Of a stretch of DNA of 39,365 nt, positions 1-39,114 are shown in pieces; the first letter of the stretch is position 1, and each line of letters starts with the position of its first letter. Origin of the DNA: Saccoglossus kowalevskii (taxonomy: Eukaryota; Hemichordata; Enteropneusta; Harrimaniidae); contig NW_003156171.1 in the NCBI RefSeq assembly GCF_000003605.2, forward strand, positions 1 through 39,365, written 5' to 3'. The notes beneath the pieces were generated by a model. That model did no database searches. It had not been told where the DNA came from and saw only the letters and a program-made list of their open reading frames with translations. The position numbers and the translations under genes were made by a program.

Positions 1-82
1 CAGGTGAGTGCTCTGTCGTAAAGTTGATGTGTAATGAAAACATACATATATAACTTGAAAACTAATACATGTGCCACAATAT

Positions 83-162
83 CGAGCGTGCCAGGATTTG
101 AGATTTGAAGCTGGAATCTTCTGATCAGTAGTCAGACGCGGTATCCGTTGCGCCACACGCTC
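83..162 (-). pseudogene. tRNA-Arg-like class B pseudogene, locus 1
   Basis: Type copy of class B. The T loop is doubled (minus TTCAAAT then CTCAAAT), giving a 14-nt loop, a C-C mismatch at the top of the T stem and a broken B box. The anticodon loop reads CTACTGA, anticodon ACT instead of ACG. Acceptor base 2 is A, which pairs with T71. Identical in these respects to loci 9 and 15. Confidence 0.9.
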
Positions 163-574
163 TGTTCGCCTTTGATGCGTTTGCCTAACACTCGTGACAC
201 GTATTCAAACAATCAAAATACATAGGAATTAAAAGTTAAGTCATTTGAATTCTGGATATTCAGAATTTTGAATTATAGTATGCGTTGATTGTTTGACCGT
301 AACGCTCGTCGGTCACAAGAGCGTTCATCGATGACTGTTTGGAGAAATGCAAATTTTCGAACCGCAGAAACTCCAGCCGATTCGTTTGATCTGTAGATGT
401 TCACATGCTCATAGGTCCCTCCGGTGTTCACCAATGACACGTGTGAGAAAATGAAACAGATTTGGGGATTCATATGACACATGTTTATCGCAGGTGAGTT
501 GCTCTGTCGTAAAGTTGATGTTGTGATGAAAACATACATATATAACTTGAAAACTAATACATGTGCCACAATAT

Positions 575-654
575 CGAGCGTGCCAGGATTTGAGATTTGA
601 AGCTGGAATCTTCTGATCTGTAGTCAGACGCGGTATCCGTTGCGCCACACGCCC
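575..654 (-). pseudogene. tRNA-Arg-like class B pseudogene, locus 2
   Basis: Class B T-loop duplication (80 nt). The anticodon loop reads CTACAGA, so the anticodon is ACA. The acceptor 5' strand is the normal GGGCGTG. Confidence 0.88.
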
Positions 655-1065
655 TGTTCGCCTTTGATGCGTTGCCTAACACTCGTGACACGTATTGAAA
701 CAATCAAAATACATAGGAATTAAAAGTTAAGTCAACTGAATTCTGGATATGCAGAATTTTGAAGTATAGTATGCGTTGACTGTTTGGCCGTAACGCAAGT
801 CGGTCACAATAGCGTTCATCGATGACAGTATTGAGACATGCAAATTTTGGAACAGCAGAAACTCCAGCCGATTCGTTTGATCTGTAGATGTTCACATGCT
901 CAGAGGTCCCACCGGTGCTCACCAATGGCAGGTGTGAGAATATGAAACAGATTTTGGAATTCATATGACACATGTTTATCGCAGGTGAGTTGCTATGACG
1001 CAAAGTTGATGTTGTGATGAAAACAAACATATATAACTTGAAAACGAATACATGTGCCATAATAC

Positions 1066-1138
1066 CGAGCGTGCCAGGATTCGAACCTGGAATCTTCTGA
1101 TCCGTAGACAGACGCGTTATCCGTTGCGCCACACGCCC
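1066..1138 (-). tRNA. tRNA-Arg(ACG), locus 3, T31 allele
   Basis: 73 nt, identical to consensus except A31 to T, which makes a T31-T39 mismatch next to the anticodon loop. The B box and anticodon ACG are intact. Linked to the tgttcgcgtttga spacer. Confidence 0.85.
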
Positions 1139-1322
1139 TGTTCGCGTTTGATGCGTTTGTCTATTACTCGTAACACGTAATGAAACAATCAAAATACATA
1201 GGAATTAAAAGTTAAGTCAATTGAATTCTGGATATGCAGAATTTTGAAGTATAGTATGCGTTGACTGTTTGACCGTAACGCTCGTCGGTCACAAGAGCGT
1301 TCATCGACGACAGTTTTGAGAA

Positions 1323-1330
1323 ATGCAAAT
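1323..1330. promoter_or_regulatory. Octamer-like ATGCAAAT motif upstream of locus 3
   Basis: The + strand has ATGCAAAT (ATTTGCAT in tRNA sense), 184 nt upstream of the tRNA 5' end. The octamer is the POU/Oct-1 site found in distal elements of snRNA-type Pol II/III promoters. It recurs in many monomers but is replaced by atgaaaat, atgaacat or atgacaat in others, including upstream of consensus loci 17, 19, 44 and 72. Function here is speculative. Confidence 0.35.
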
Positions 1331-1550
1331 TTTGGAACCGCAGAAACTCCAGCCGATTCGTTTGATCTGTAAATGTTCACATGCTCATAGGTCCCTCCGG
1401 TGTTCACCAATGACACGTGTGAGAAAATGAAACAGATTTGGAGATTCATATGACACATGTTTATCGCAGGTGAGTTGCTCTGTCGTAAAGTTGATGTTGT
1501 GATGAAAACAGACATTTATAACTTGAAAACTAATGCATGAGCCATAATAC

Positions 1551-1622
1551 CGAGCGTGCCAGGATTCGAACCTGGAATCTTATGATCCGTAGTAGACGCG
1601 TTATCCGTTGCGCCACACGCCC
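1551..1622 (-). pseudogene. tRNA-Arg(ACG)-like, locus 4, 1-nt deletion
   Basis: 72 nt. One base is missing from the 5' side of the anticodon stem (+ agtagac for agtcagac) and the other side has a substitution (+ tatga). The paralogous locus 10 lacks the deletion. Confidence 0.8.
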
Positions 1623-1849
1623 TGTTCAAAGTCGATGCGTTTGTCTATCACTCGTGACACGTATTGAAACAATCGAAATACATATGACTTAAAAGTTAAG
1701 TCAATTGAATTCTGGATACTCAGAATTTTGAAGTATAGTTTACGTTGACTGTTTGGTCGTAACGGTCGTCGGTCACAATTGCGTTCATCGATGACAGAAT
1801 TGAGACATGAAAATTTTGGAACGGCAGAAACTCCAGCCAATACATTTTA

Positions 1850-1886
1850 CCGTAGTCAGACGCGTTATCCGTTGCGCCACACGCCC
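1850..1886 (-). pseudogene. tRNA fragment, locus 5 (5' half only)
   Basis: 37 nt covering acceptor 5' strand, D arm and anticodon stem-loop start; T arm and variable loop are gone. The spacer text ttttac joins directly to ccgtag, so 221 bp are missing and the monomer is 264 bp. The join shares cc with both parents. Confidence 0.9.
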
Positions 1887-2298
1887 TGTTCAAAGTCGAT
1901 GCGTTTGCCTATCACTCGTGACACGTATTGAAACAATCGAAATACATAAGGCTTAAAAGTTAAGTCAATTGAATTCTGGATACTCAGAATTTTGAAGTAT
2001 AGTTTGCGTTGACTCTTTGGCCGTAACGGTCGTCGGTCACAATTGCGTTCATCGATGACAGAATTGAGACATGACAATTTTGGAACCGCAGAAACTCCAG
2101 CCAATTCATTTTACCTGCAGATGTTCACATGCTCAGAGGTCCCACCGGTGCTCACCAATGGCAGGTGTGAGAATATGAAACAGATTTTGGAATTCATATG
2201 ACACATGTTTATCGCAGGTGAGTTGCTCTGTCGTAAAGTTGATGTTGTGATGAAAACAAACATTTATAACTTGAAAACTAATGCATGAGCCATAATAC

Positions 2299-2371
2299 CG
2301 AGCGTGCCAGGATTCGAACCTGGAATCTTCTGATCCGTAGACAGACGCGTTATCCGTTGCGCCACACGCCC
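2299..2371 (-). tRNA. tRNA-Arg(ACG), locus 6, T31 allele
   Basis: Same 73-nt sequence as locus 3: only the T31-T39 mismatch departs from consensus. Confidence 0.85.
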
Positions 2372-2783
2372 TGTTCGCGTTTGATGCGTTTGTCTATTAC
2401 TCGTAACACGTAATGAAACAATCAAAATACATAGGAATTAAAAGTTAAGTCATTTGAATTCTGGATATTCAGAATTTTGAATTATAGTATGCGTTGACTG
2501 TTTGACCGTAACGCTCGTCGGTCACATGAGCGTTCATCGACGACAGTTTTGAGAAATGCAAATTTTGGAACCGCAGAAACTCCAGCCGATTCGTTTGATC
2601 TGTAAATGTTCACATGCTCATAGGTCCCTCCGGTGTTCACCAATGACACGTGTGAGAAAATGAAACAGATTTGGGGATTCATATGACACATGTTTATCGC
2701 AGGTGAGTTGCTCTGTCGTAAAGTTGATGTTGTGATGAAAACAGACATTTATAACTTGAAAACTAATGCATGAGCCATAATAC

Positions 2784-2856
2784 CGAGCGTGCCAAGATTC
2801 GAACCTGGAATCTTCTGATCCGTAGACAGACGCGTTATCCGTTGAGCCACACGCCC
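2784..2856 (-). tRNA. tRNA-Arg(ACG), locus 7, T31 plus D- and T-arm changes
   Basis: 73 nt with the T31 change, a G-T wobble in the T stem (+ ccaag) and a base change in the D stem (+ gttgagcc). Locus 13 is its higher-order repeat partner. Confidence 0.75.
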
Positions 2857-3268
2857 TGTTCGTGTTTGATGCGTTTGTCTATTACTCGTAACACGTAATG
2901 AAACAATCAAAATACATAGGAATTAAAAGTTAAGTCATTTGAATTCTGGATATTCAGAATTTTGAATTATAGTATGCGTTGACTGTTTGACCGTTACGCT
3001 CGTCGGTCACAAGAGCGTTCATCGATGACAGTTTTGAGAAATGCAAATTTTGGAACCGCAGAAACTCCAGCCGATTCCTTTGATCGGTAGATGTTCACAT
3101 GCTCATAGGTCCCTCCGGTGTTCACCAATGACACGTGTGAGAAAATGAAACAGATTTGGGGATTCATATGACACATGTTTATCGCAGGTGAGTTGCTCTG
3201 TCGTAAAGTTGATGTTGTGATGAAAACAAACATTTATAACTTGAAAACTAATGCATGATCCATAATAC

Positions 3269-3341
3269 CGAGCGTGCCAGGATTCGAACCTGGAATCTTC
3301 TGATCCGTAGTCAGATGCGTTATCCGTTGCGCCACACGCCC
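3269..3341 (-). tRNA. tRNA-Arg(ACG), locus 8
   Basis: 73 nt; only base 26 differs from consensus (G to A). All stems pair as in the reference copy. Confidence 0.92.
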
Positions 3342-3753
3342 TGTTCAAAGTCGATGCGTTTGCCTATCACTCGTGACACGTATTGAAACAATCGAAATAC
3401 ATATGACTTAAAAGTTAAGTCAATTGAATTCTGGATACTCAGAATTTTGAAGTATAGTTTGCGTTGACTGTTTGGCCGTAACGGTCGTCGGTCACAATTG
3501 CGTTCATCGATGACAGAATTGAGACATGAAAATTTTGGAACGGCAGAAACTCCAGCCAATTCATTTTACCTGCAGATGTTCACATGCTCATCGGTCCCAC
3601 CGGTGTTCATCATTGACACATGTGAGAAAATGAAACAGATTTTGGGATTCATATGACATATGTTTATCGCAGGTGAGTTGCTCTGTCGTAAAGTTGATGT
3701 TGTGATGAAAACATACATATATAACTTGAAAACTAATACATGTGCCACAATAT

Positions 3754-3833
3754 CGAGCGTGCCAGGATTTGAGATTTGAAGCTGGAATCTTCTGATCAGT
3801 AGTCAGACGCGGTATCCGTTGCGCCACACGCTC
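3754..3833 (-). pseudogene. Class B pseudogene, locus 9, anticodon ACT
   Basis: 80 nt; same T-loop doubling, ACT anticodon and A2 acceptor as loci 1 and 15. Confidence 0.88.
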
Positions 3834-4245
3834 TGTTCGCCTTTGATGCGTTTGCCTAACACTTGTGACACGTATTCAAACAATCAAAATACATAGGAAT
3901 TAAAAGTTAAGTCATTTGAATTCTGGATATTCAGAATTTTGAATTATAGTATGCGTTGATTGTTTGACCGTAACGCTCGTCGGTCACAAGAGCGTTCATC
4001 GATGACAGTTTGGAGAAATGCAAATTTTCGAACCGCAGAAACTCCAGCCAATTCATTTTACCTGCAGATGTTCACATGCTCAGAGGTCCCACCGGTGCTC
4101 ACCAATGGCAGGTGTGAGAATATGAAACAGATTTTGGAATTCATATGACACATGTTTATCGCAGGTGAGTTGCTCTGTCGTAAAGTTGATGTTGTGATGA
4201 AAACAAACATTTATAACTTGAAAACTAATGCATGAGCCATAATAC

Positions 4246-4318
4246 CGAGCGTGCCAGGATTCGAACCTGGAATCTTATGATCCGTAGTCAGACGCGTTAT
4301 CCGTTGCGCCACACGCCC
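4246..4318 (-). tRNA. tRNA-Arg(ACG), locus 10, one anticodon-stem mismatch
   Basis: 73 nt; + tatga replaces tctga, giving a C28-T42 mismatch. The rest is consensus. Confidence 0.8.
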
Positions 4319-4545
4319 TGTTCAAAGTCGATGCGTTTGTCTATCACTCGTGACACGTATTGAAACAATCGAAATACATATGACTTAAAAGTTAAGTCAA
4401 TTGAATTCTGGATACTCAGAATTTTGAAGTATAGTTTACGTTGACTGTTTGGTCGTAACGGTCGTCGGTCACAATTGCGTTCATCGATGACAGAATTGAG
4501 ACATGAAAATTTTGGAACGGCAGAAACTCCAGCCAATACATTTTA

Positions 4546-4582
4546 CCGTAGTCAGACGCGTTATCCGTTGCGCCACACGCCC
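4546..4582 (-). pseudogene. tRNA fragment, locus 11
   Basis: 37-nt fragment with the same join as locus 5, copied by the ~2.7 kb higher-order repeat. Confidence 0.9.
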
Positions 4583-4994
4583 TGTTCAAAGTCGATGCGT
4601 TTGCCTATCACTCGTGACACGTATTGAAACAATCGAAATACATAAGGCTTAAAAGTTAAGTCAATTGAATTCTGGATACTCAGAATTTTGAAGTATAGTT
4701 TGCGTTGAATCTTTGGCCGTAACGGTCGTCGGTCACAATTGCGTTCATGGATGACAGAATTGAGACATGACAATTTTGGAACCGCAGAAACTCCAGCCAA
4801 TTCATTTTACCTGCAGATGTTCACATGCTCAGAGGTCCCACCGGTGCTCACCAATGGCAGGTGTGAGAATATGAAACAGATTTTGGAATTCATATGACAC
4901 ATGTTTATCGCAGGTGAGTTGCTCTGTCGTAAAGTTGATGTTGTGATGAAAACAAACATTTATAACTTGAAAACTAATGCATGAGCCATAATAC

Positions 4995-5067
4995 CGAGCG
5001 TGCCAGGATTCGAACCTGGAATCTTCTGATCCGTAGACAGACGCGTTATCCGTTGCGCCACACGCCC
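4995..5067 (-). tRNA. tRNA-Arg(ACG), locus 12, T31 allele
   Basis: 73 nt, same sequence as loci 3 and 6. Confidence 0.85.
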
Positions 5068-5479
5068 TGTTCGCGTTTGATGCGTTTGTCTATTACTCGT
5101 AACACGTAATGAAACAATCAAAATACATAGGAATTAAAAGTTAAGTCATTTGAATTCTGGATATTCAGAATTTTGAATTATAGTATGCGTTGACTGTTTG
5201 ACCGTAACGCTCGTCGGTCACAAGAGCGTTCATCGACGACAGTTTTGAGAAATGCAAATTTTGGAACCGCAGAAACTCCAGCCGATTCGTTTGATCTGTA
5301 AATGTTCACATGCTCATAGGTCCCTCCGGTGTTCACCAATGACACGTGTGAGAAAATGAAACAGATTTGGGGATTCATATGACACATGTTTATCGCAGGT
5401 GAGTTGCTCTGTCGTAAAGTTGATGTTGTGATGAAAATAGACATTTATAACTTGAAAACTAATGCATGAGCCATAATAC

Positions 5480-5552
5480 CGAGCGTGCCAAGATTCGAAC
5501 CTGGAATCTTCTGATCCGTAGACAGACGCGTTATCCGTTGAGCCACACGCCC
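5480..5552 (-). tRNA. tRNA-Arg(ACG), locus 13, T31 plus D- and T-arm changes
   Basis: 73 nt, identical to locus 7. Confidence 0.75.
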
Positions 5553-5964
5553 TGTTCGTGTTTGATGCGTTTGTCTATTACTCGTAACACGTAATGAAAC
5601 AATCAAAATACATAGGAATTAAAAGTTAAGTCATTTGAATTCTGGATATTCAGAATTTTGAATTATAGTATGCGTTGACTGTTTGACCGTTACGCTCGTC
5701 GGTCACAAGAGCGTTCATCGATGACAGTATTGAGAAATGCAAATTTTGGAACTGCAGAAACTCCAGCCGATTCCTTTGATCTGTAGATGTTCACATGCTC
5801 ATAGGTCCCTCCGGTGTTCACCAATGACACGTGTGAGAAAATGAAACAGATTTGGGGATTCATATGACACATGTTTATCGCAGGTGAGTTGCTCTGTCGT
5901 AAAGTTGATGTTGTGATGAAAACAAACATTTATAACTTGAAAACTAATGCATGATCCATAATAC

Positions 5965-6037
5965 CGAGCGTGCCAGGATTCGAACCTGGAATCTTCTGAT
6001 ACGTAGTCAGATGCGTTATCCGTTGCGCCACACGCCC
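5965..6037 (-). tRNA. tRNA-Arg(ACG), locus 14
   Basis: 73 nt; base 26 is A as in locus 8, and base 37 next to the anticodon is T instead of G (+ tacgtag). Stems are intact. Confidence 0.82.
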
Positions 6038-6449
6038 TGTTCAAAGTCGATGCGTTTGCCTATCACTCGTGACACGTATTGAAACAATCGAAATACATAT
6101 GACTTAAAAGTTAAGTCAATTGAATTCTGGATACTCAGAATTTTGAAGTATAGTTTGCGTTGACTGTTTGGCCGTAACGGTCGTCGGTCACAATTGCGTT
6201 CATCGATGACAGAATTGAGACATGAACATTTTGGAACGGCAGAAACTCCAGCCAATTCATTTTACCTGCAGATGTTCACATGCTCATCGGTCCCACCGGT
6301 GTTCATCATTGACACATGTGAGAAAATGAAACAGATTTTGGGATTCATATGACATATGTTTATCGCAGGTGAGTTGCTCTGTCGTAAAGTTGATGTTGTG
6401 ATGAAAACATACATATATAACTTGAAAACTAATACATGTGCCACAATAT

Positions 6450-6529
6450 CGAGCGTGCCAGGATTTGAGATTTGAAGCTGGAATCTTCTGATCAGTAGTC
6501 AGACGCGGTATCCGTTGCGCCACACGCTC
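6450..6529 (-). pseudogene. Class B pseudogene, locus 15, anticodon ACT
   Basis: 80 nt, copy of loci 1 and 9 in the second ~2.7 kb repeat. Confidence 0.88.
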
Positions 6530-6940
6530 TGTTCGCCTTTGATGCGTTTGCCTAACACTTGTGACACGTATTCAAACAATCAAAATACATAGGAATTAAA
6601 AGTTAAGTCATTTGAATTCTGGATATTCAGAATTTTGAATTATAGTATGCGTTGATTGTTTGACCGTAACGCTCGTCGGTCACAAGAGCGTCATCGATGA
6701 CAGTATTGAGAAATGCAAATTTTGGAAAGGCAGAAACTCCAGCCAATTCATTTTACCTGCAGATGTTCACATGCTCATTGGTCCCACCGGTGTTCATCAA
6801 TGACACATGTGAGAAAATGAAACAGATTTTGGGATTCATATGACATATGTTTATCGCAGGTGAGTTGCTCTGTCGTAAAGTTGATGTTGTGATGAAAACA
6901 TACATATATAAGTTGAAAACTAATACACGTGCCATAATAC

Positions 6941-7404: not shown

Positions 7405-7436
7405 CTAATACACGTGCCATAATACCGAGCGTGCCA

Positions 7437-7447
7437 GGATTCGAACC
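7437..7447 (-). promoter_or_regulatory. Pol III B box of locus 17
   Basis: The minus strand reads GGTTCGAATCC, an exact match to the B-box consensus GGTTCGANTCC in the T arm. Class B loci (for example 83-162) replace it with GCTTCAAATCT and should bind TFIIIC less well. Confidence 0.92.
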
Positions 7448-7480
7448 TGGAATCTTCTGATCCGTAGTCAGACGCGTTAT

Positions 7481-7491
7481 CCGTTGCGCCA
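7481..7491 (-). promoter_or_regulatory. Pol III A box of locus 17
   Basis: The minus strand reads TGGCGCAACGG, a close match to the tRNA A-box consensus TRGCNNARYNGG, in the D arm. It is the TFIIIC contact that sets the start site. The same box is present in most loci; loci 7 and 13 read TGGCTCAACGG and locus 81 loses the second base. Confidence 0.9.
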
Positions 7492-7498
7492 CACGCCC

Positions 7499-7910: not shown

Positions 7911-7983
7911 GAAGCGTGCCAGGATTTGAACCTGGAATCTTCTGATATGTAGTCAAACGCGTTATCCGTTGCGCCACACGCCC
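7911..7983 (-). tRNA. tRNA-like with anticodon ACA, locus 18
   Basis: 73 nt with a complete cloverleaf but loop CTACATA, so the anticodon is ACA (would read UGU). The T loop is TTCAAAT, T72 wobbles with G1, the discriminator is C and base 28 is T. Body and acceptor are still tRNA-Arg type, so real charging with cysteine is unlikely. Nearly the same as loci 80 and 82. Confidence 0.6.
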
Positions 7984-9420: not shown

Positions 9421-10200
9421 TGTTCGCGTTTGATGCGTTTGTCTATTACTCGTAGCAAGTAATGAAACAATCGAAATACATAGGAATTAAAAGTTAAGTC
9501 ATTTGAATTCTGGATATTCAGAATTTTGAATTTTGTATGCGTTGACTGTTTGACCGTAACGCTCGTCGGTCACAAGAGCGTCCATCGATGACAGTTTTGA
9601 GAAATGACAATTTTGGAACGGCAGAAACTCCAGCCAATTCATTTTACCTGCAGATGTTCACATGCTCATCGGTCCCACTTGTGTTCATCAATGACACAGG
9701 TGAGAAAATGAAACAGATTTTGGGATTCTCATGACATATGTTTATCGCAGGTGAGTTGCTCTGTCGTAAAGTTGATGTTGTGATGAAAACATACATATAT
9801 AACTTGAAAACTAATACATGTGCGATAATATCGAGCGTGCCAGGAATTGGGATTTGAACCTGGAATCTTCTGATCCGTAGTCAGACGCGGTATCCGTTGC
9901 GCCACACGCCCTGTTCATGTTCGATGCGTTTGTCTAATACTCGTGACACGTATTGAAACAATCGAAGTACGTAGGACTTAAAAGTTAAGTCAATTAAATT
10001 CTGGATATTCAGAATTTTGAATTATAGTATGCGTTGAGTGTTTGGCCGTAACGCTCGTCGGTCACAATTGCGTTCATCGATGACAGTATTGAGACATGAA
10101 CATTTTGGAACCGCAGAAACTCCAGCCAATTCATTTTACCTGCAGATGTTCACATGCTCATCGGTCCCACTGGTGTTCATCAATGACACAGGTGAGAAAA
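9421..10200. repeat. Long-range shared segment, copy 1
   Basis: Contains rare markers: cgtagcaagtaatg, the shortened gaattttgtatgcg and class B2 locus 22. Matches 36562-37340 at an offset of 27141 bp. Confidence 0.85.
9832..9911 (-). pseudogene. tRNA-Arg-like class B2, locus 22
   Basis: 80 nt with a different 7-nt T-loop insertion: minus CCAGG-TTCAAAT-CCCAATT-CCTGG. The B box GGTTCAAATCC and both T-stem strands remain, so transcription could continue, but the loop is 14 nt. Anticodon ACG. Only locus 79 shares it. Confidence 0.85.
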
Positions 10201-10323
10201 TGAAACAGATTTTGGGATTCATATGGCACATGTATATCGCAGGTGAGTTGCTCTGTCATAAAGTTGATGTTGTGATGAAAATATACATATATAACTTGAA
10301 AACTAATACAAGTGCCATAATAT

Positions 10324-10396
10324 CGAGCGTGCTAGGATTTGAACCTGGAATCTTCTGATCCGTAGTCAGACGCGTTATCCGTTGCGCCACACGCCA
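10324..10396 (-). tRNA. tRNA-Arg(ACG)-like, locus 23
   Basis: 73 nt with T loop TTCAAAT, a C50-A64 mismatch in the T stem (+ ctagg) and T at base 1 (+ cacgcca), mismatched with C72. Probably decayed. Identical to locus 37. Confidence 0.65.
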
Positions 10397-10800
10397 TGTT
10401 CGCCTTTGATACGTTTGCCTAACAGTCGTGACACCGTGACGTATTGAAACAATCGAAATACATTTGAATTAAAAGTTAAGTCAATTGAATTCTGAATATT
10501 CAGAATTTTGAAGTATAGTTTGCGTTGACTGTTTGGCTGTAACGCTCGTCGGTCACAATTGCGTTTTGAGACATGCAAATTTTGGAACGGCGGAAACTCC
10601 AGCCGATTCGTTTGATCTGTAGATGTTCACATGCTCATAGGTCCCACCGGTGTTCTTCAATGACACGTGTGAGAAAATGAAACTGATTTGGGGATTCATA
10701 TGACACCTGTTTATCGCAGGTGAGTTGCTATGTCGTAAAGTTGATATTGTGATGAAAACAAACATTTATAAGTTGAAAACTAATGCATGTGCCATAATAC

Positions 10801-10872
10801 CGAGCGTGACAGGATTCGAACCTGGAATGTTCAATCCGTAGTCAGACGCGTTATCCGTTGCGCCAAACGCCC
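10801..10872 (-). pseudogene. Degenerate tRNA-Arg, locus 24
   Basis: 72 nt; a 1-nt loss and changes in the 3' anticodon stem (+ aatgttcaatccg), a C49-T65 T-stem mismatch (+ acagg) and T7-C66 in the acceptor. Copied as locus 38. Confidence 0.85.
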
Positions 10873-11284
10873 TGTTCGCCTTTGATACGTTTGCCTAACA
10901 GTCGTGAAACGTATTGAAACAATAAAAATACATTTGATTTAAAAGTTAAGTCAATTGAATTCTGGATATGCAGAATTTTGAAGTATAGTATGCGTTGACT
11001 GTTTGGCCGTAACGCTCGTCGGTCACAATAGCGTTCATCGATGACAGTATTGAGACATGCAAATTTTGGAACCGCAGAAACTCCAGCCGATTCGTTTGAT
11101 CTGTAGATGTTCACATGCTCATAGGTCCCTCCGGTGTTCACCAATGACACGTGTTAGAAAATGAAACAGATTTGGGGATTCATATGACACATGTTTATCG
11201 CAGGTGAGTTGCTCTGTCGAAAAGTTGATGTTGTGATGAAAACAAACATTTATAACTTGAAAACTAATGCATGAGCCATAATAC

Positions 11285-11357
11285 CGAGCATGCCAGGATT
11301 CGAACCTGGAATCTTCTGATCCGTAGTCAGACGCGTTATCCGTTGCGCCACACGCCC
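11285..11357 (-). tRNA. tRNA-Arg(ACG), locus 25
   Basis: 73 nt; single G5-T68 wobble (+ gagcatg), otherwise consensus. Confidence 0.92.
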
Positions 11358-11769
11358 TGTTCAAAGTCGATGCGTTTGCCTATCACTGGTGACACGTATT
11401 GAAACAATCAAAATACATAGGAATTAAAAGTTAAGTCAATTGAATTCTGGATATGCTGAATTTTGAAGTATAGTATGCGTTGACTGTTTGACCGTAACGC
11501 TCGTCGGTCACAAGAGCGTTCATCGACGACAGTTTTGAGAAATGCAAATTTTGGAACCGCAGAAACTCCAGCCGATTCGTTTGATCTGTAGATGTTCACA
11601 TGCTCATAGGTCCCTCCGGTGTTCACCAATGACACGTGTGAGAAAATGAAATAGATTTGGGGATTCATATGACACATGTTTATCGCAGGTGAGTTGCTCT
11701 GTCGTAAAGTTGATGTTGTGATGAAAACAAACATTTATAACTTGAAAACTAATGCATGTGCCACAATAT

Positions 11770-11849
11770 CGAGCGTGCCAGGATTTGAGATTTGAAGCTG
11801 GAATCTTCTGATCCGTAGTTAGACGCGTTATCCATTGCGCCACACGCCC
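11770..11849 (-). pseudogene. Class B pseudogene, locus 26, anticodon ACG
   Basis: 80 nt T-loop duplication. The anticodon is ACG but base 30 is A (+ ttaga), mismatched with C40. Loci 39, 53 and 56 are the same type. Confidence 0.88.
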
Positions 11850-12253
11850 TGTTCAAATTCGATGCGTTTGCCTATCACTCGTGACACGTATTGAAACAAT
11901 CGAAATACATATGACTTAAGGTTAAGTCAATTGAATTCTGGATACTCAGAATTTTGAAGTATAGTTTACGTTGACTGTTTGGTCGTAACGGTCGTCGGTC
12001 ACAATTGCGTTCATCGATGACAGAATTGAGACATGAAAATTTTGGAACGGCAGAAACTCCAGCCAATTCATTTTACATGCAGATGTTCACATGCTCAGAG
12101 GTCCCACCGGTGCTCACCAATGGCAGGTGTGAGAATATGAAACAGATTTTGGAATTCATATGACACATGTTTATCGCAGGTGAGTTGCTCTGTCGTAAAG
12201 TTGATGTTGTGATGAAAACAAACATTTATAACTTGAAAACTAATGCATGATAC

Positions 12254-12326
12254 CGAGCGTGCCAGGATTCGAACCTGGAATCTTCTGATCCGTAGTCAGA
12301 CGCGGTATCCGTTGCGCCACACGCCC
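12254..12326 (-). tRNA. tRNA-Arg(ACG), locus 27
   Basis: 73 nt; only base 22 in the D arm differs (A to C, + gcggtat). The 3' trailer is 9-10 nt shorter than usual (+ gcatgataccg), with gaaaac still present. Confidence 0.9.
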
Positions 12327-12737
12327 TGTTCGCCTTTGATGCGTTGCCTAACACTCGTGACACGTATTGAAACAATCAAAATACATAGGAATTGAAAGTT
12401 AAGTCAATTGAATTCTGGATATGCAGAATTTTGAAGTATAGTATGCGTTGACTGTTTGACCGAAACGCTCGTCGGTCACAAGAGCGTTCATCGACGACAG
12501 TTTTAAGAAATGCAAATTTTGGAACCGCAGAAACTCCAGCCGATTCGTTTGATCTGTAGATGTTCACATGCTCATAGGTCCCCCCGGTGTTCACCAATGA
12601 CACGTGTGAGAAAATGAAACAGATTTGGGGATTCATATGACACATGTTTATCGCAGGTGAGTTGCTCTGTCGTAAAGTTGATGTTGTGATGAAAACAGAC
12701 ATTTATAACTTGAAAACTAATGCATGAGCCATAACAC

Positions 12738-12810
12738 CGAGCGAGCCAGGATTCGAACCTGCAATCTTCTGATCCGTAGTCAGACGCGTTATCCGTTGCG
12801 CCACACGCCC
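12738..12810 (-). pseudogene. Decaying tRNA-Arg, locus 28
   Basis: 73 nt; T6-T67 in the acceptor (+ gagcgag) and G49-G65 in the T stem (+ cctgc). Anticodon ACG and stem are normal. Confidence 0.7.
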
Positions 12811-13222
12811 TGTTCAAATTCGATGCGTTTGCCTATCACTCGTGACACGTATTGAAACAATCGAAATACATATGACTTAAAAGTTAAGTCAATTGAATTC
12901 TGGATACTCAGAATTTTGAAGTATAGTTAACGTTGACTGTTTGGTCGTAACGGTCGTCGGTCACAATTGCGTTCATCGATGACAGAATTGAGACATGAAA
13001 ATTTTGGAACGGCAGAAACTCCAGCCGATTCGTTTGATCTGTAGATGTTCACATGCTCATAGGTCCCTCCGGTGTTCACCAATGACACGTGTGAGAAAAT
13101 GAAACAGATTTGGGGATTCATATGACACATGTTTATCGCAGGTGAGTTGCTCTGTCGTAAAGTTGATGTTGTGATGAAAACAGACATTTATAACTTGAAA
13201 ACTAATGCATGAGCCATAACAC

Positions 13223-13295
13223 CGAGGGGGCCAGGAATCGAACCTGCAATCTTCTGATCCGTAGTCAGACGCGTTATCCGTTGCGCCACACGCCC
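13223..13295 (-). pseudogene. Decaying tRNA-Arg, locus 29
   Basis: 73 nt; duplicate of locus 28 with further acceptor damage (+ gaggggg: mismatches at 4-69 and 6-67) and a changed T loop (+ aatcgaa). Confidence 0.75.
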
Positions 13296-13707
13296 TGTTC
13301 AAATTCGATGCGTTTGCCTATCACTCGTGACACGTATTGAAACAATCGAAATACATATGACTTAAAAGTTAAGTCAATTGAATTCTGGATACTCAGAATT
13401 TTGAAGTATAGTTAACGTTGACTGTTTGGTCGTAACGGTCGTCGGTCACAATTGCGTTCATCGATGACAGAATTGAGACATGAAAATTTTGGAACGGCAG
13501 AAACTCCAGCCGATTCGTTTGATCTGTAGATGTTCACATGCTCATAGGTCCCTCCGGTGTTCACCAATGACACGTGTGAGAAAATGAAACAGATTTGGGG
13601 ATTCATATGACACATGTTTATCGCAGGTGAGTTGCTCTGTCGTAAAGTTGATGTTGTGATGAAAACAGACATTTATAACTTGAAAACTAATGCATGAGCC
13701 ATAATAC

Positions 13708-13780
13708 CGAGCATGCCAGGATTCGAACCTGGAATCTTCTGATCCGTAGTCAGACGCGTTATCCGTTGCGCCACACGCCC
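13708..13780 (-). tRNA. tRNA-Arg(ACG), locus 30
   Basis: 73 nt, identical to locus 25 (one G5-T68 wobble). Confidence 0.92.
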
Positions 13781-14193
13781 TGTTCAAAGTCGATACGTTT
13801 GCCTATCACTGGTGACACGTATTGAAACAATCAAAATACATAGGAATTAAAAGTTAAGTCAATTGAATTCTGGATATGCTGAATTTTGAAGTATAGTATG
13901 CGTTGACTGTTTGACCGTAACGCTCGTCGGTCACAAGAGCGTTCATCGACGACAGTTTTGAGAAATGCAAATTTTGGAACCGCAGAAACTCCAGCCGATT
14001 CGTTTGATCTGTAGATGTTCACATGCTCAGAGGACCCACCAGTGCTCACCAATGGCAGGTGTGAGAATATGAAACAGATTTTGGAATTCATATGACACAT
14101 GTTTATCGCAGGTGAGTTGCTCTGTCCTAAAGTTGATGTTGTGATGAAAAAAAAACATTTATAACTTGAAAACTAATGCATGAGCCATAATAC

Positions 14194-14266
14194 CGAGCGT
14201 GCCAGGATTCGAACCTTGAATTTTCTAATCCGTAGTCAGACGCGTTATCCGTTGCGCCACACGCCC
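14194..14266 (-). tRNA. tRNA-Arg(ACG)-like, locus 31
   Basis: 73 nt; A50-G64 mismatch in the T stem (+ ccttg), G30-T40 wobble (+ tctaa) and a variable-loop change. Possibly inactive. Confidence 0.65.
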
Positions 14267-14678
14267 CGTTCAAAGTTGATGCGTTTGCCTATCACTCGTG
14301 ACACGTATTGAAACAATCGAAATACATATGACTTAAAAGTTAAGGCACTTGAATTCTGGATACTCAGAATTTTGAAGTATAGTTTGCGTTGACTGTTTGG
14401 TCGTAACGGTCGTCGGTCACAATTGCGTCCATCGATGACAGAATTGAGACATGAAAATTTCGGAACGGCAGAAACTCCAGCCAATTCATTTTACCTGCAG
14501 ATGTTCACATGCTCATCGGTCCCACCGGTGTTCATCATTGACACATGTGAGAAAATGAAACAGATTTTGGGATTCATATGACATATGTTTATCGCAGGAG
14601 AGTTGCTCTGTCGTAAAGTTGATGTTGTGATGAAAACAAACATATATAACTTGAAAACTAATACATGTGCCACAATAT

Positions 14679-14758
14679 CGAGCGTGCCAGGATTTGAGAT
14701 TTGAAGCTGGAATCTTCTGATCCGTAGTCAGACGCGGTATCCGTTGAGCCACACGCTC
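14679..14758 (-). pseudogene. Class B pseudogene, locus 32
   Basis: 80 nt; T-loop duplication, anticodon ACG, A2-T71 acceptor pair as in loci 1, 9 and 15, and a D-stem change (+ gttgagcc). Confidence 0.85.
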
Positions 14759-15170
14759 TGTTCGCCTTTGATGCGTTTGCCTAACACTCGTGACACGTAT
14801 TCAAACAATCAAAATACATAGGAATTAAAAGTTAAGTCATTTGAATTCTGGATATTCAGAATTTTGAATTATAGTATGCGTTGACTGTTTGACCGTAACG
14901 CTCGTCGGTCACAAGAGCGTTCATCAACGACAGTTTTGAGAAATGCAAATTTTGGAACCGCAGAAACTCCAGCCGATTCGTTTGATCTGTAGATGTTCAC
15001 ATGCTCATAGGTCCCTCCGGTGTTCACCAATGACACGTGTGAGAAAACGAAATAGATTTGGGGATTCATATGACACATGTTTATCGCAAGTGAGTTGCTC
15101 TGTCGTAAAGTTGATGTTGTGATGAAAACAAACATTTATAACTTGAAAACTAATGCATGAGCCATAATAC

Positions 15171-15243
15171 CGAGCGTGCCAAGATTCGAACCTGGAATCT
15201 TCTGATCCATAGTCAGACGCGTTATCCGTTGCGCCACACGCCC
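15171..15243 (-). tRNA. tRNA-like with anticodon ATG, locus 33
   Basis: 73 nt, intact cloverleaf with one G-T in the T stem (+ ccaag). The loop reads CTATGGA, so the anticodon is ATG (would read CAU). The body is tRNA-Arg type and lacks the extra 5' G of tRNA-His. Same change in locus 62. Confidence 0.65.
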
Positions 15244-15655
15244 TGTTCAAAGTCGACGCGTTTGCCTAATACTCGTGACACGTATTGAAACAATCGAAAT
15301 ACATATGACTTAAAAGATAAGTCAATTGAATTCTGGGTATGCAGAATTTTGAATTATAGTATGCGTTGACTGTTTGACCGTAACGGTCGTCGGTCACAAT
15401 TGCGTTCATCGATGACAGAATTGAGACATGGAAATTTTGGAACGGCAGAATCTCCAGCCAATTCATTTTACCTGCAGATGTTCACATGCTCATCGGTCCC
15501 ACCGCTGTTCATCATTGACACATGTGAGAAAATGAAACAGATTTTGGGATTGATATGACATATGTTTATCGCAGGTGAGTTGCTCTGTCGTAAAGTTGAT
15601 GTTGTGATGAAAACATACATATATAACTTGAAAACTAATACATGTGCCACAATAT

Positions 15656-15734
15656 CGAGCGTGCCAGGATTTGAGATTTGAAGCTGGAATCTTCTGATCC
15701 GTAGTCAGACGCGGTATCCGTTGGCCACACGCCC
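15656..15734 (-). pseudogene. Class B pseudogene, locus 34
   Basis: 79 nt; T-loop duplication plus one base lost in the D arm (+ ttggcc for ttgcgcc). Anticodon ACG. Confidence 0.85.
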
Positions 15735-16145
15735 TGTTCGCCTTTGATGCGTTTGCCTAACACTCGTGACACGTATTGAAAAAATCAAAATACATATGAC
15801 TTAAAAGTTAAGTCAATTGAATTCTGGATACTCAGAATTTTGAAGTATAGTTTGCGTTGACTGTTTGGTGGTAACGGTCGTCGGTCACAATTGCGTTCAT
15901 CGATGACAGAATTGAGACATGCAAATTTTGGAACCGCAGAAACTCCAGCCGATTCGTTTGATCTGTAGATGTTCACATGCTCATAGGTCCCTCAGTGTTC
16001 ACCAATGACACGTGTGAGAAAATGAAACAGATTTGGGGATTCAGATGACACATGTTTATCGCAGGTGAGTTGCTCTGTCGTAAAGTTGATGTTGTGATGA
16101 AAACAAACATTTATAACTTGAAAACTAATACATGTGCCACAATAT

Positions 16146-16225
16146 CGAGCGTGCCAGGATTTGAGATTTGAAGCTGGAATCTTCTGATCCGTAGTCAGAC
16201 GCGGTATCCATTGAGCCACACGCCC
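16146..16225 (-). pseudogene. Class B pseudogene, locus 35
   Basis: 80 nt; T-loop duplication, anticodon ACG, D-arm changes (+ tccattgagcc). Confidence 0.85.
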
Positions 16226-16636
16226 TATTCGCCTTTGATGCGTTTGCCTAACACTCGTAACACGTATTGAAACAATCAAAATACATAGGAATTAAAAGTT
16301 AAGTCAATTGAATTCTGGATATGCAGAATTTTGAAGTATAGTATGCGTTGACTGTTTGGCCGTAACGCAAGTCGGTCACAATAGCGTTCATCGATGACAG
16401 TATTGAGACATGCAAATTTTGGAACCGCAGAAACTCCAGCCGATTCGTTTGATCTGTAGATGTTCCATGCTCAGAGGTCCCACCGGTGCTCACCAATGAC
16501 AGGTGTGAGAATATGAAACAGATTTTGGAATTCATATGACACATGTTTATCGCAGGTGAGTTGCTGTGTCACAAAGTTGATGTTGTGATGAAAACAAACA
16601 TATATAACTTGAAAACTAATACATGTGCCATAATAC

Positions 16637-16709
16637 AGAGCGCGCCAGGATTCGAACCTGGAATCTTCTAATCCGTAGACAGACGCGTTATCCGTTGCGC
16701 CACACGCCC
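16637..16709 (-). tRNA. tRNA-Arg(ACG), locus 36, weakened
   Basis: 73 nt; T31-T39 mismatch beside a G30-T40 wobble, T6-G67 wobble (+ gagcgcg) and discriminator T. The anticodon stem is the weakest of the T31 group. Confidence 0.68.
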
Positions 16710-17598: not shown

Positions 17599-17670
17599 CG
17601 AGCGTGACAGGATTCGAACCTGGAATGTTCAATCCGTAGTCAGACGCGTTATCCGTTGCGCCAAACGCCC
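17599..17670 (-). pseudogene. Degenerate tRNA-Arg, locus 38
   Basis: 72 nt, identical to locus 24. Confidence 0.85.
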
Positions 17671-22055: not shown

Positions 22056-22467
22056 TGTTCGCCTTTGATGCGTTTGCCTAACACTTGTGACACGTATTGA
22101 AACAATCGAAATACATAGGAATTAAAAGTTAAGTCATTTGAATTCTGGATATTCAGAATTTTGAATTATAGTATGCGTTGACTGTTTGACCATAACGCTC
22201 GTCGGTCACAAGAGCGTTCGTCGATGACAGTTTTGAAAAATGCAAATTTTGGAACCGCAGAAACTCCAGCCGATTCGTTTGATCTGTAGATGTTCACATG
22301 CTCATACGTCCCACAGGTGTTCACCAATGCCACGTGTGAGAAAATGAAACAGATTTGGGGATTCATATGTCACATGTTTATCGCAGGTGAGTTGCTCTGT
22401 CGTAAAGATGATGTTGTGATAAAAACATACATATATAACTTGAAAACTAATACATGTGCCACAATAT

Positions 22468-22547
22468 CGATCCTGCCAGGATTTGAGATTTGAAGCTGGA
22501 ATCTTCTGATCCGTAGTCAGACGCGTTATCCGTTGCGCCAAACGCCC
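22468..22547 (-). pseudogene. Class B pseudogene, locus 48
   Basis: 80 nt, copy of locus 46, 977 bp away. Confidence 0.9.
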
Positions 22548-22959
22548 TGTTCGCCTTTGATACGTTTGCCTAACAGTCGTGAAACGTATTGAAACAATAA
22601 AAATACACTTGATTTAAAAGTTAAGTCAATTGAATTCTGGATATGCAGAATTTTGAAGTATAGTATGCGTTGACTGTTTGGCCGTAACGCTCGTCGGTCA
22701 CAATAGCGTTCATCGATGACAGTATTGAGACATGCAAATTTTGGAAAGGCAGAAACTCCAGCCAATTCATTTTACCTGCAGATGTTCACATGCTCATTGG
22801 TCCCACCGGTGTTCATCAATGACACATGTGAGAAAATGAAACAGATTTTGGGATTCATATGACATATGTTTATCGCAGGTGAGTTGCTCTGTCGTAAAGT
22901 TGATGTTGTGATGAAAACATACATATATAAGTTGAAAACTAATACACGTGCCACAATAC

Positions 22960-23032
22960 CGAGCGTGCCAGGATTCGAACCTGGAATCTTCTGATCCGTA
23001 GTCAGACGGGTTATCCGTTGCGCCACACGCCC
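22960..23032 (-). tRNA. tRNA-Arg(ACG), locus 49
   Basis: 73 nt; one D-stem mismatch C11-C24 (+ cggg). The flank ccacaatacc mixes the class A and class B forms. Confidence 0.82.
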
Positions 23033-23380
23033 TGTTCTCCTTTGATGCGTTTGCCTAACACTTGTGACACGTATTGAAACAATCGAAATACATATGACTT
23101 AAAAGTTAAGTCAATTGAATTCTGGATATTCAGAATTTTGAAGTATAGTTTGCGTTGACTGTTTGGCCGTAACGGTCGTCGGTCATAATTGCGTTCATCG
23201 ATGACAATATTGAGACATGAACATTTTGGAACCGCAGAAACTCCAGCCAATTCATTTTACCTGCAGATGTTCACATGCTCATCGGTCCCACTGGTGTTCA
23301 TCAATGACACCGGTGAGAAAAGGAAACAGATTTTGGGATTCTCATGACATATGTTTATCGCAGGTGAGTTGCTCTGTCGT

Positions 23381-23425
23381 AAAAGTTGATGTTGTGATGA
23401 AAACATACATATATACTTGAAACTA
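23381..23425. other. Suspected assembly consensus-error patch
   Basis: One run is lengthened (gtaaaag for gtaaag) and two are shortened (tatataacttg to tatatacttg, gaaaac to gaaac) within 45 bp. Confidence 0.6.
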
Positions 23426-23443
23426 ATACATGTGCCATAATAT

Positions 23444-23516
23444 CAAGCGTGCCAGGATTTGAACCTGGAATCTTCTTATCCGTAGTCAGACGCGTTATCC
23501 GTTGCGCCAAACGCCC
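23444..23516 (-). tRNA. tRNA-Arg(ACG)-like, locus 50
   Basis: 73 nt, identical to locus 43. Its 3' trailer lies in a suspected consensus-error patch (23381-23425). Confidence 0.65.
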
Positions 23517-23928
23517 TGTTCGCCTTTGATACGTTTGCCTAACAGTCGTGAAACGTATTGAAACAATAAAAATACACTTGATTTAAAAGTTAAGTCAATT
23601 GAATTCTGGATATGCAGAATTTTGAAGTATAGTATGCGTTGACTGTTTGGCCGTAACGCTCGTCGGTCACAATAGCGTTCATCGATGACAGTATTGAGAC
23701 ATGCAAATTTTGGAAAGGCAGAAATTCCAGCCAATTCATTTTACCTGCAGATGTTCACATGCTCATTGGTCCCACCAGTGTTCATCAATGACACATGTGA
23801 GAAAATGAAACAGATTTTGGGATTCATATGACATATGTTTATCGCAGGTGAGTTGCTCTGTCGTAAAGTTGATGTTGTGATGAAAACATACATATATAAG
23901 TTGAAAACTAATACACGTGCCATAATAC

Positions 23929-24001
23929 CGAGCGTGCCAGGATTCGAACCTGGAATCTTCTGATCCGTAGTCAGACGCGTTATCCGTTGCGCCACACGCC
24001 C
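23929..24001 (-). tRNA. tRNA-Arg(ACG), locus 51, consensus
   Basis: 73 nt, identical to locus 17. First member of a 3-monomer repeat with loci 52 and 53. Confidence 0.95.
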
Positions 24002-36520: not shown

Positions 36521-36561
36521 TGATCCGTAGTCAGACGCGTTATCCGTTGGGCCACACGCCC
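36521..36561 (-). pseudogene. tRNA fragment, locus 78
   Basis: 41 nt: acceptor 5' strand, D arm and anticodon stem-loop. Spacer text gagttgct joins directly to gatccgtag, so the T arm and part of the spacer are deleted; the join shares ct with both parents. Confidence 0.88.
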
Positions 36562-37340
36562 TGTTCGCGTTTGATGCGTTTGTCTATTACTCGTAGCAAG
36601 TAATGAAACAATCAAAATACATAGGAATTAAAAGTTAAGTCATTTGAATTCTGGATATTCAGAATTTTGAATTTTGTATGCGTTGACTGTTTGACCGTAA
36701 CGCTCGTCGGTCACAAGAGCGTCCATCGACGACAGTTTTGAGAAATGACAATTTTGGAACGGCAGAAACTCCAGCCAATTCATTTTACCTGCAGATGTTC
36801 ACATGGTCATCGGTCCCACTTGTGTTCATCAATGACACAGGTGAGAAAATGAAACAGATTTTGGGATTCTCATGACATATGTTTATCGCAGGTGAGTTGC
36901 TCTGTCGTAAAGTTGATGTTGTGATGAAAACATACATATATAACTTGAAAACTAATACATGTGCGATAATATCGAGCGTGCCAGGAATTGGGATTTGAAC
37001 CTGGAATCTTCTGATCCGTAGTCAGACGCGGTATCCGTTGCGCCACACGCCCTGTTCATGTTCGATGCGTTTGCCTAATACTCGTGACACGTATTGAAAC
37101 AATCGAAGTACGTAGGACTTAAAAGTTAAGTCAATTAAATTCTGGATATTCAGAATTTTGAATTATAGTATGAGTTGAGTGTTTGGCCGTAACGCTCGTC
37201 GGTCACAATTGCGTTCATCGATGACAGTATTGAGACATGAACATTTTGGAACCGCAGAAACTCCAGCCAATTCATTTTACCTGCAGATGTTCACATGCTC
37301 ATCGGTCCCACAGGTGTTCATCAATGACACAGGTGAGAAA
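36562..37340. repeat. Long-range shared segment, copy 2
   Basis: Same rare markers and locus 79. Similarity to copy 1 is far higher than to adjacent monomers. Confidence 0.85.
36973..37052 (-). pseudogene. tRNA-Arg-like class B2, locus 79
   Basis: 80 nt, identical to locus 22 in its T-loop insertion, and embedded in the same monomers 27141 bp away. Confidence 0.85.
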
Positions 37341-37464
37341 AGGAAACAGATTTTGGGATTATCATGACATATGTTTATCGCAGGTGAGTTGCTCTGTCGT
37401 AAAGTTGATGTTGTGATGAAAACATACATATATAACTTGAAAACTAATACATGTGCCATAATAT

Positions 37465-37537
37465 CAAGCGTGCCAGGATTTGAACCTGGAATCTTCTGAT
37501 ATGTAGTCAAACGCGTTATCCGTTGCGCCACACGCCC
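37465..37537 (-). tRNA. tRNA-like with anticodon ACA, locus 80
   Basis: 73 nt; loop CTACATA, T loop TTCAAAT, G1-T72 wobble, T28-G42 wobble; identical to locus 82. Confidence 0.6.
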
Positions 37538-37949
37538 TGTTCGCCTTTGATGCGTTTGCCTAACAGTCGTGATACATATTGAAACAATAAAAATACATTT
37601 GATTTAAAAGTTAAGTCAATTGAATTCTGGATATGCAGAATTTTGAAGTATAGTATGCGTTGACTGTTTGGCCGTAACGCTCGTCGGTCACAATAGCGTT
37701 CATCGATGACAGTATTGAGACATGCAAATTTTGGAAAGGCAGAAACTCCAGCCAATTCATTTTACCTGCAGATGTTCACAGGCTCATTGGTCCCACCAGT
37801 GTTCACCAATGACACATGTGAGAAAATGAAACAGATTTTGGGATTCATATGACATATGTTTATCGCAGGTGAGTTGCTCTGTCATAAAGTTGATGTTGTG
37901 ATGAAAACATACATATATAAGTTGAAAACTAATATACGTGCCATAATAC

Positions 37950-38022
37950 CGAGCGTGCCAGGATTCGAACCTGGAATCTTCCAATCCGTAGTCAGACGCG
38001 TTATCCGTTGCGCAACACGCCC
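37950..38022 (-). tRNA. tRNA-Arg(ACG)-like, locus 81
   Basis: 73 nt; + tccaa makes the anticodon stem pair through two G-T wobbles; base 9 is T, altering the A box (TTGC). Confidence 0.7.
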
Positions 38023-38434
38023 TGTTCGCCTTTGATGCGTTTGCCTAACACTTGTGACACGTATTGAAACAATCGAAATACATATGACTTAAAAGTTAAG
38101 TCAATTGAATTCTGGATATTCAGAATTTTGAAGTATAGTTTGCGTTGACTGTTTGGCCGTAACGGTCGTCGGTCATAATTGCGTTCATCGATGACAATAT
38201 TGAGACATGAACATTTTGGAACCGCAGAAACTCCAGCCAATTCATTTTACCTGCAGATGTTCACATGCTCATCGGTCCCACTGGTGTTCATCAATGACAC
38301 CGGTGAGAAAAGGAAACAGATTTTGGGATTCTCATGACATATGTTTATCGCAGGTGAGTTGCTCTGTCGTAAAGTTGATGTTGTGATGAAAACATACATA
38401 TATAACTTGAAAACTAATACATGTGCCATAATAT

Positions 38435-38507
38435 CAAGCGTGCCAGGATTTGAACCTGGAATCTTCTGATATGTAGTCAAACGCGTTATCCGTTGCGCCA
38501 CACGCCC
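38435..38507 (-). tRNA. tRNA-like with anticodon ACA, locus 82
   Basis: 73 nt, same as locus 80, 970 bp away. Confidence 0.6.
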
Positions 38508-38919
38508 TGTTCGCCTTTGATGCGTTTGCCTAACAGTCGTGATACGTATTGAAACAATAAAAATACATTTGATTTAAAAGTTAAGTCAATTGAATTCTGG
38601 ATATGCAGAATTTTGAAGTATAGTATGCGTTGACTGTTTGGCCGTAACGCTCGTCGGTCACAATAGCGTTCATCGATGACAGTATTGAGACATGCACATT
38701 TTGGAAAGGCAGAAACTCCAGCCAATTCATTTTACCTGCAGATGTTCACATGCTCATTGGTCCCACCAGTGTTCATCAATGACACATGTGAGAAAATGAA
38801 ACAGATTTTGGGATTCATATGACATATGTTTATCGCAGGTGAGTTGCTCTGTCGTAAAGTTGATGTTGTGATGAAAACATACATATATAACTTGAAAACT
38901 AATACATGTGCCACAATAT

Positions 38920-38999
38920 CGAGCGTGCCAGGATTTGAGATTTGAAGCTGGAATCTTCTGATCCGTACTCAGACGCGGTATCCGTTGCGCCACACGCCC
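38920..38999 (-). pseudogene. Class B pseudogene, locus 83
   Basis: 80 nt; T-loop duplication, base 32 is G (+ tccgtac), anticodon ACG. It is the last tRNA locus before the MITE. Confidence 0.87.
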
Positions 39000-39114
39000 T
39001 GTTCGCCTTTGATGCGTTTGCCTAACACTCGTGACACGTATTGAAACAATCAAAATACATAGGAATTAAAAGTTAAGTCAATTGAATTCTGAATATGCAG
39101 AATTTTGAAGTATA

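Follow-up and report, generated by a model that had tools for sequence, protein, structure and literature searches.

A partly decayed tandem array of tRNA-Arg(ACG) genes in the acorn worm Saccoglossus kowalevskii, probably a satellite of tRNA-gene origin

The window analyzed here is a stretch of 39,365 nucleotides from the acorn worm Saccoglossus kowalevskii (NW_003156171.1, labeled C4549), which makes up an entire contig of the 572-Mb genome and has both of its ends inside one tandem array of transfer RNA (tRNA) sequences. Similar monomers of about 485 bp follow one another head to tail across tens of kilobases, as is typical of a satellite, and each contains a tRNA-Arg(ACG) gene or its remnant. 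Most of the copies in the array are damaged and a minority is intact. Probably, the array is a satellite that nucleated on a tRNA-Arg(ACG) gene and turns over by unequal exchange, keeping an intact minority that is perhaps under weak selection.

Exactly 83 tRNA-Arg(ACG) loci or remnants were identified in the window by BLAST with one 73-nt copy as query, all on the minus strand, which matches the number and the single orientation that an earlier note had read from the letters alone. The monomer length given in that note was reproduced by Tandem Repeats Finder (TRF), in which most rows up to position 39114 have a period of 485, and by the start-to-start spacing of the loci, mostly 485 (33 of 82) or 484 (11 of 82). 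Mean pairwise identity among 77 aligned monomers is 91.9%, an average difference of about 8%; five of the 82 units were excluded from this alignment for lengths outside 440-520 bp, as was the final locus, after which no further start occurs. Such a tandem pattern greatly exceeds what chance would give. Contrary to the end proposed at 39114, the array continues: this position is only the edge of a 208-bp insert (39115-39322) past which the array resumes at about 39325. ARAGORN predicted 58 tRNA genes, on the minus strand only (52 Arg-ACG, three Cys-ACA, two His-ATG, and one Arg-TCG), and 59 tRNAs exceeded the Rfam cut-off with scores of 29.7-61.6 bits, while the rest of the 83 loci fail this family cut-off for a cloverleaf tRNA. 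The array and selected copies are as follows.

1..39114, minus strand: tandemly repeated ~485-bp monomers with 83 tRNA-Arg(ACG) loci, whether genes or remnants, starting mid-monomer (TRF, BLAST)
3269..3341, minus strand: top-scoring tRNA copy of the window, Arg(ACG), 73 nt, 61.6 bits, one base off the commonest array sequence (ARAGORN, Rfam, BLAST)
3244..3247, minus strand: terminator of four T (T4) for the copy at 3269, 21 nt past the 3' end of its tRNA
7426..7498, minus strand: commonest exact 73-nt sequence, identical to three genes elsewhere in the genome, 61.3 bits (Rfam, sequence comparison)
Starts at 8396, 20521, 23929, 25369, 26925, and 33703, minus strand: the other six window copies of the commonest 73-nt sequence

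The monomer is not confined to the window. A 68-nt spacer query found it on six further contigs (the 40 best of 324 candidates were scored), giving, together with the window, seven array contigs with 142,815 bp and 299 tRNA loci in a single orientation. These contigs are covered end to end by the monomer except for five interruptions of about 207 bp, all at copies of an insert resembling a miniature inverted-repeat transposable element (MITE), and minor gaps no longer than 35 bp. On an eighth contig (C574), the array occupies all of the 2 kb read. The array on C3521 is unusually regular at positions 10001-20000, where copies with shifted anticodons occur (GCG, n = 4; ACT, AGG, and AAG, n = 1 each), and in its last 4 kb (20001-24000), small non-monomer gaps recur at intervals of about 823-829 bp, which hints at a higher-order unit. 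The mitochondrial contig of the genome (C4830, 17,037 bp), read over 8.0 kb from its start and 4.3 kb around cox1, agrees with the acorn-worm source. There, cox1 is encoded opposite to frames interpreted, from open frames and tRNA order, as nad1, nad3, nad4, nad4L, nad5, cox2, and atp6; AAA occurs at sites conserved as lysine, cox1 is free of AGA and AGG, and nad4 and nad5 together contain a single AGA. For Saccoglossus kowalevskii, a COX1 inversion compared to Balanoglossus, AAA as Lys, AGA as Ser, and a lack of AGG are described (PMC3121625). The many tRNA genes of this contig do not fit a cnidarian, and the mitochondrial features also spoke against a bivalve, which the look of the MITE-like insert had suggested.

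The condition of the tRNA copies was assessed on the seven contigs, where 270 of the 299 loci cover at least 70 of the 73 positions; the 29 shorter loci were dropped from the counts on 270. These 270 copies comprise 141 distinct tRNA sequences, and the commonest exact 73-nt sequence accounts for 24 of them, seven in the window. The A box, B box, and T4 terminator that had been attributed to the intact copies are widespread: both box consensuses were matched in 175 of the 270 copies and not in the remaining 95, and T4 begins 21 nt past the tRNA in 230, so that the terminator is distal and minimal rather than adjacent. Sixty-one copies have a length of at least 77 nt, 59 by way of a 7-nt insertion in the T arm, which disrupts the B box, and two by an insertion in the anticodon arm. 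ARAGORN accepted two of these 61 versus 205 of the 209 shorter ones, 181 of the latter as Arg-ACG.

In the consensus tRNA, 20 of 21 pairs form and only 13-22 does not. Leaving aside five copies without flank, 265 remain, and subtracting the 59 of at least 77 nt among them gives 206 aligned copies below 77 nt. All 20 canonical pairs are kept in 71 of the 206, and pairs, ACG anticodon, A box, and B box are all kept in 50, where rows with a gap in the 73 tRNA columns were scored as failing. Shifted anticodons among the array copies are ACA, ATG, GCG, AGG, ACT, AAG, and TCG. The damaged copies of the window are these.

3754..3831, minus strand: example of the 7-nt T-arm insertion class, B box disrupted
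Starts at 83, 575, 3754, 6450, 9832, 11770, 14679, 15656, 16146, 18083, 19059, 24877, 26332, 28379, 36973, and 38920, minus strand: T-arm insertion class in the window, 16 of the 83 loci
1850..1886, minus strand: tRNA remnant truncated at an irregular monomer junction (BLAST)
Starts at 4546, 24422, 26492, and 36520, minus strand: further short tRNA loci (BLAST)
7911..7983, minus strand: anticodon-shifted copy, ACG to ACA (ARAGORN)
Starts at 37465 and 38435 (ACA), 15171 and 28871 (ATG), and 21983 (TCG), minus strand: other anticodon-shifted copies (ARAGORN)

The promoter boxes could have a role of their own. The array might act as a chromatin domain bound by TFIIIC or RNA polymerase III (Pol III), where, whether or not the tRNA is functional, TFIIIC would be drawn in by the A and B boxes to form a boundary or clustering element. 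The 175 copies that match both consensuses would suit such a role, and boundary roles of tRNA genes are discussed for human 1q23.3 (PMC4041453). However, the B box is disrupted in the T-arm class (59 of 270), and no flanks that could be insulated were found. We consider this explanation very unlikely. A methylated, silent array undergoing CpG decay was also examined and is not supported, as the window and the consensus have CpG observed/expected ratios of 1.25 and 1.24, respectively, and transitions at CpG do not consistently outnumber those at the remaining C and G positions.

Genes with the same tRNA sequence exist outside the array. When the 40 best of 325 candidates from a human tRNA-Arg(ACG) query were scored, the top-scoring 33 included one place on each of three contigs 1.35 Mb, 0.72 Mb, and 0.20 Mb long, so at least three non-array genes are present. 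Each of them (on C2340, C286, and C3850) is the sole tRNA within the 2 kb read, and its 73 nt are identical to the commonest array copy, while the flanks are unrelated and the array spacer is not shared. Runs of at least four T start 5, 10, and 1 nt past the tRNA, respectively. Apparent sources of tRNA-Arg(ACG) besides the array therefore exist.

These results bear on whether the array is a functional dosage array that supplies tRNA-Arg(ACG), like multi-copy 5S or oocyte-type tRNA arrays, with the broken copies as passengers. The identity of the intact minority to the genes elsewhere agrees with this, as does the lower diversity of the tRNA segment described below. However, the genes elsewhere have nearer terminators, 59 of the 265 flanked copies are of at least 77 nt (and unscored for pairing), and 50 of the other 206 pass every check. 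Moreover, the 5S ribosomal RNA (rRNA) genes of this genome, which are tandem too, score tightly, 41 of the 47 best candidates at 110.2-112.9 bits (22 at 112.7-112.9 and 19 at 110.2), versus the 29.7-61.6 bits of the window tRNA copies above the cut-off, in a comparison of lists that were not drawn alike. A pure dosage store is unlikely because so many copies are broken, even though the intact minority and the reduced tRNA diversity are compatible with some expression.

The tRNA segment may be maintained to some degree. In copies below 77 nt, divergence from the consensus is 3.3% in the tRNA versus 6.1-6.6% in the 200-bp flanks, and this reduction is gone in the class of at least 77 nt (tRNA 5.7%, flanks 5.2-6.7%). 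Diversity in the 206 copies is 0.061 in the tRNA versus 0.111 in the spacer, about half, and 0.052 versus 0.105 outside CpG. Rare variants are enriched in the tRNA, outnumbering common ones by 70 to 32 there and by 254 to 250 in the spacer (Fisher p = 0.0007), and common stem variants keep pairing in 10 cases and break it in 13, whereas rare ones keep it in 5 and break it in 32 (p = 0.014). In copies simulated at the flank rate, ARAGORN accepts 87% and 0.65% are exact, below the observed 205 of 209 (98%) and 24 of 209 (11.5%); this higher acceptance could be counted toward dosage as well. Simulation at the observed tRNA rate comes close to the data (97.5% accepted, 8.7% exact), so acceptance and exact counts tell hardly more than that rate does. 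Among the 20-bp bins of the monomer, the one with the highest diversity in the 206 copies (0.163) lies directly upstream of the tRNA.

Several points weigh against a tRNA-founded satellite with a selected minority. The pairing contrast is not significant when limited to transitions (p = 0.11). Singletons are denser in the tRNA (39 of 73 sites, 0.53) than in the spacer (150 of 410, 0.37), and 35 disjoint close pairs of window monomers differ more in the tRNA (3.1%) than in the spacer (1.7%), in a set that includes T-arm length variants and places the tRNA at the unit edge. Singleton density and the excess in close pairs argue against simple constraint, unless the mutation rate is higher in the tRNA. 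Low tRNA diversity could also stem from gene conversion by genes elsewhere. As array copies share ancestry, their variants are non-independent, so that the p-values are optimistic and indicative only. Finally, no transition from array into unique DNA appeared on the seven array contigs, and the founding event is therefore not seen. Weak selection together with a raised mutation rate fits both patterns of tRNA variation, and conversion from genes elsewhere might likewise.

Other tRNA genes form tandem arrays in this genome, of which only short stretches were read. Arg-TCG genes are arranged in tandem on C237, C1937, and C3006 (mostly ~550-567 bp apart), Cys-GCA genes on C926, C682, and C4368 (mostly ~238 bp apart), Thr-TGT genes on C4103 (~570-680 bp apart), and Trp-CCA genes on C4826 (~462 and ~653 bp apart); one Arg-TCG gene on C3484 stands alone in the 2 kb read. 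Together with Arg-ACG, five isoacceptors are thus each found in an array of their own. When the Arg-ACG monomer was compared with ten loci of the other isoacceptors (E up to 1e-3), the matches listed were confined to the tRNA region. The Arg-TCG array on C237 also has anticodon-shifted copies (TCA, TGG), and by eye, the Thr-TGT units on C4103 appear to contain further tRNA-like remnants between the called genes. The 5S arrays have a spacing of ~1.13-1.14 kb on C3485 and mostly ~1.58 kb on C2212 and C3801. A first look at the genome gave 25,204 tRNA and 18,217 5S candidates (the best 63 and 47 were scored), which may reflect abundant tRNA-like and 5S-like sequence.

Exact matches were absent for a 25-base spacer word in a viral contig collection (viral_contigs) and for a 30-base spacer word in the genome_contigs collection. 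A phage search returned three records, all matching inside the tRNA part; an annotated tRNA-Arg is hit in two of them and an unannotated 39-base stretch in the third. A permissive-threshold search of one monomer for a second RNA in the spacer gave three matches besides the tRNA, all below the cut-off. A tRNA head joined to about 412 bp of other sequence might instead point to a tRNA-Arg-headed short interspersed nuclear element (SINE) that turned tandem, as proposed for PcH-Sat from Nin-SINE, a precedent for SINE-derived satellites (PMC11121367). However, the 40 best of the 324 spacer-query candidates are all on the seven array contigs, and the three genes elsewhere share the 73 nt without the spacer. 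Within that scope, a SINE origin seems highly improbable.

Of the three readings that the earlier note had put forward, the satellite derived from a tRNA locus is the best supported, since damage affects the majority of copies, the same 73 nt occur elsewhere in genes with unrelated flanks, and the spacer is unmatched in the other arrays tested; the dosage store fared worse, as argued above.

Traces of turnover are seen within the array. An exact-seed ungapped diagonal scan found 132 ungapped block pairs of at least 600 bp at 98.5% identity or more within or between the seven contigs, and irregular monomer junctions leave truncated tRNAs. The longest repeated block of the window measures 2,402 bp (1594-3995 versus 4290-6691, 99.6% identity). 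The MITE-like insert occurs five times on four contigs (the window, C4645, C4113, and C3594), all copies being 100% identical and flanked by TA. Two copies sit at one site of the monomer and two at another, and in the window copy, these two sites supply one flank apiece. Such hybrid flanks are the outcome that would be expected from exchange between two insert copies; the hybrid may possibly be an assembly join, as the contig end is no more than 300 bp away.

1594..3995, no strand assigned: 2,402-bp block duplicated at 4290-6691, a recent multi-monomer duplication (ungapped diagonal scan)
39115..39322, no strand assigned: MITE-like insert, 208 bp, with terminal inverted repeats and TA on either side, 100% identical to four copies on array contigs
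39325..39365, minus strand: array sequence resumed past the MITE-like insert, up to the contig end

An assembly artefact in which one or a few units were multiplied artificially would account for this hybrid insert and for seven fully read contigs that are all array to their ends. It is hardly credible given that the window monomers are about 8% apart on average and that 270 copies hold 141 distinct tRNA sequences. Furthermore, in the ungapped scan, no block of more than 2.4 kb at 98.5% identity or more is common to or repeated within the seven contigs, which are therefore not redundant copies of one another.

For the satellite nucleated on a tRNA gene, we propose that one tRNA-Arg(ACG) gene with its flanks was amplified in tandem as a unit of about 485 bp. 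The copied blocks, of up to about five monomers, suggest that rearrangement continues by unequal exchange. Most copies have decayed through T-arm insertion, truncation, stem-breaking changes, and anticodon shifts, and as genes with the same 73 nt exist elsewhere, array copies are likely to be individually dispensable. The intact minority retains the 73 nt of those genes, both promoter boxes, and the minimal T4 21 nt downstream. Pol III transcription of this minority at some level is still probable. Weak selection or conversion may hold the tRNA segment, and a comparable process seems to have affected several other tRNA genes, to judge from their arrays.

A broader and more tentative possibility is that tRNA genes are recurrent satellite seeds in the acorn-worm lineage, at least five isoacceptors having founded their own arrays with different periods. 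Arg-ACG would then be caught partway from gene array to satellite, with the intact minority selected and T-arm and anticodon-shifted copies drifting, and the denser rare variants in the tRNA would mark transcription-associated mutation. Intact and broken copies side by side, with the same tRNA body elsewhere, provide a natural test of dosage maintenance versus a tRNA-seeded satellite, for which the anticodon-shifted copies make copy-specific tRNA sequencing informative.

Tandem tRNA satellites had been called uncommon but known in some animals, in agreement with published accounts of Entamoeba, Hydractinia, Nippostrongylus, and human 1q23.3. Clustering of tRNA genes is described as differing widely among animals (PMC2888827). 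Tandem tRNA arrays occur in Hydractinia and Nematostella (PMC11067881); in Hydractinia, the copies are nearly identical or highly similar and the tRNAs serve all 20 amino acids, whereas the acorn worm has mostly damaged Arg-ACG copies, five isoacceptor arrays seen, and a deuterostome host. With 91.9% mean monomer identity and T-arm insertions in 59 of 270 copies, the array is neither nearly identical nor free of pseudogenes. In the nematode Nippostrongylus brasiliensis, a ~200-bp tRNA-Trp unit is repeated about 150 times, and a tRNA-Ser unit with a species-specific spacer 90 times (PMC5765664), a similar tandem tRNA repeat in another phylum and with other isoacceptors.

In Entamoeba, tandem tRNA units are described whose homogenization is ascribed to concerted evolution, with up to five tRNA genes per unit plus short tandem repeats and nearly all tRNA genes arrayed; that paper reports no clear evidence of pseudogenes (PMC2652664). 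The acorn-worm unit, in contrast, has one gene, many broken copies, and same-sequence genes elsewhere. The variable number tandem repeat of tRNA genes at human 1q23.3 is tandem as well, with 7.3-kb units, five tRNA genes, CTCF binding, and a copy number that differs between people (PMC4041453). PcH-Sat of Patella shares a Pol III-related origin but has a 179-bp unit and a proposed truncated-SINE source without A or B box (PMC11121367). The oocyte tRNA arrays of Xenopus, described as switched on at zygotic genome activation, are tandem tRNA genes in a deuterostome, as in the acorn worm (PMC11500080). A report of acorn-worm tRNA arrays was not found in the open-licence literature among the matches listed. 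The array belongs to the known class of tandem tRNA arrays and is distinguished by heavy decay beside same-sequence genes elsewhere, and with it, Saccoglossus, a hemichordate, joins the few organisms in which such arrays are described.

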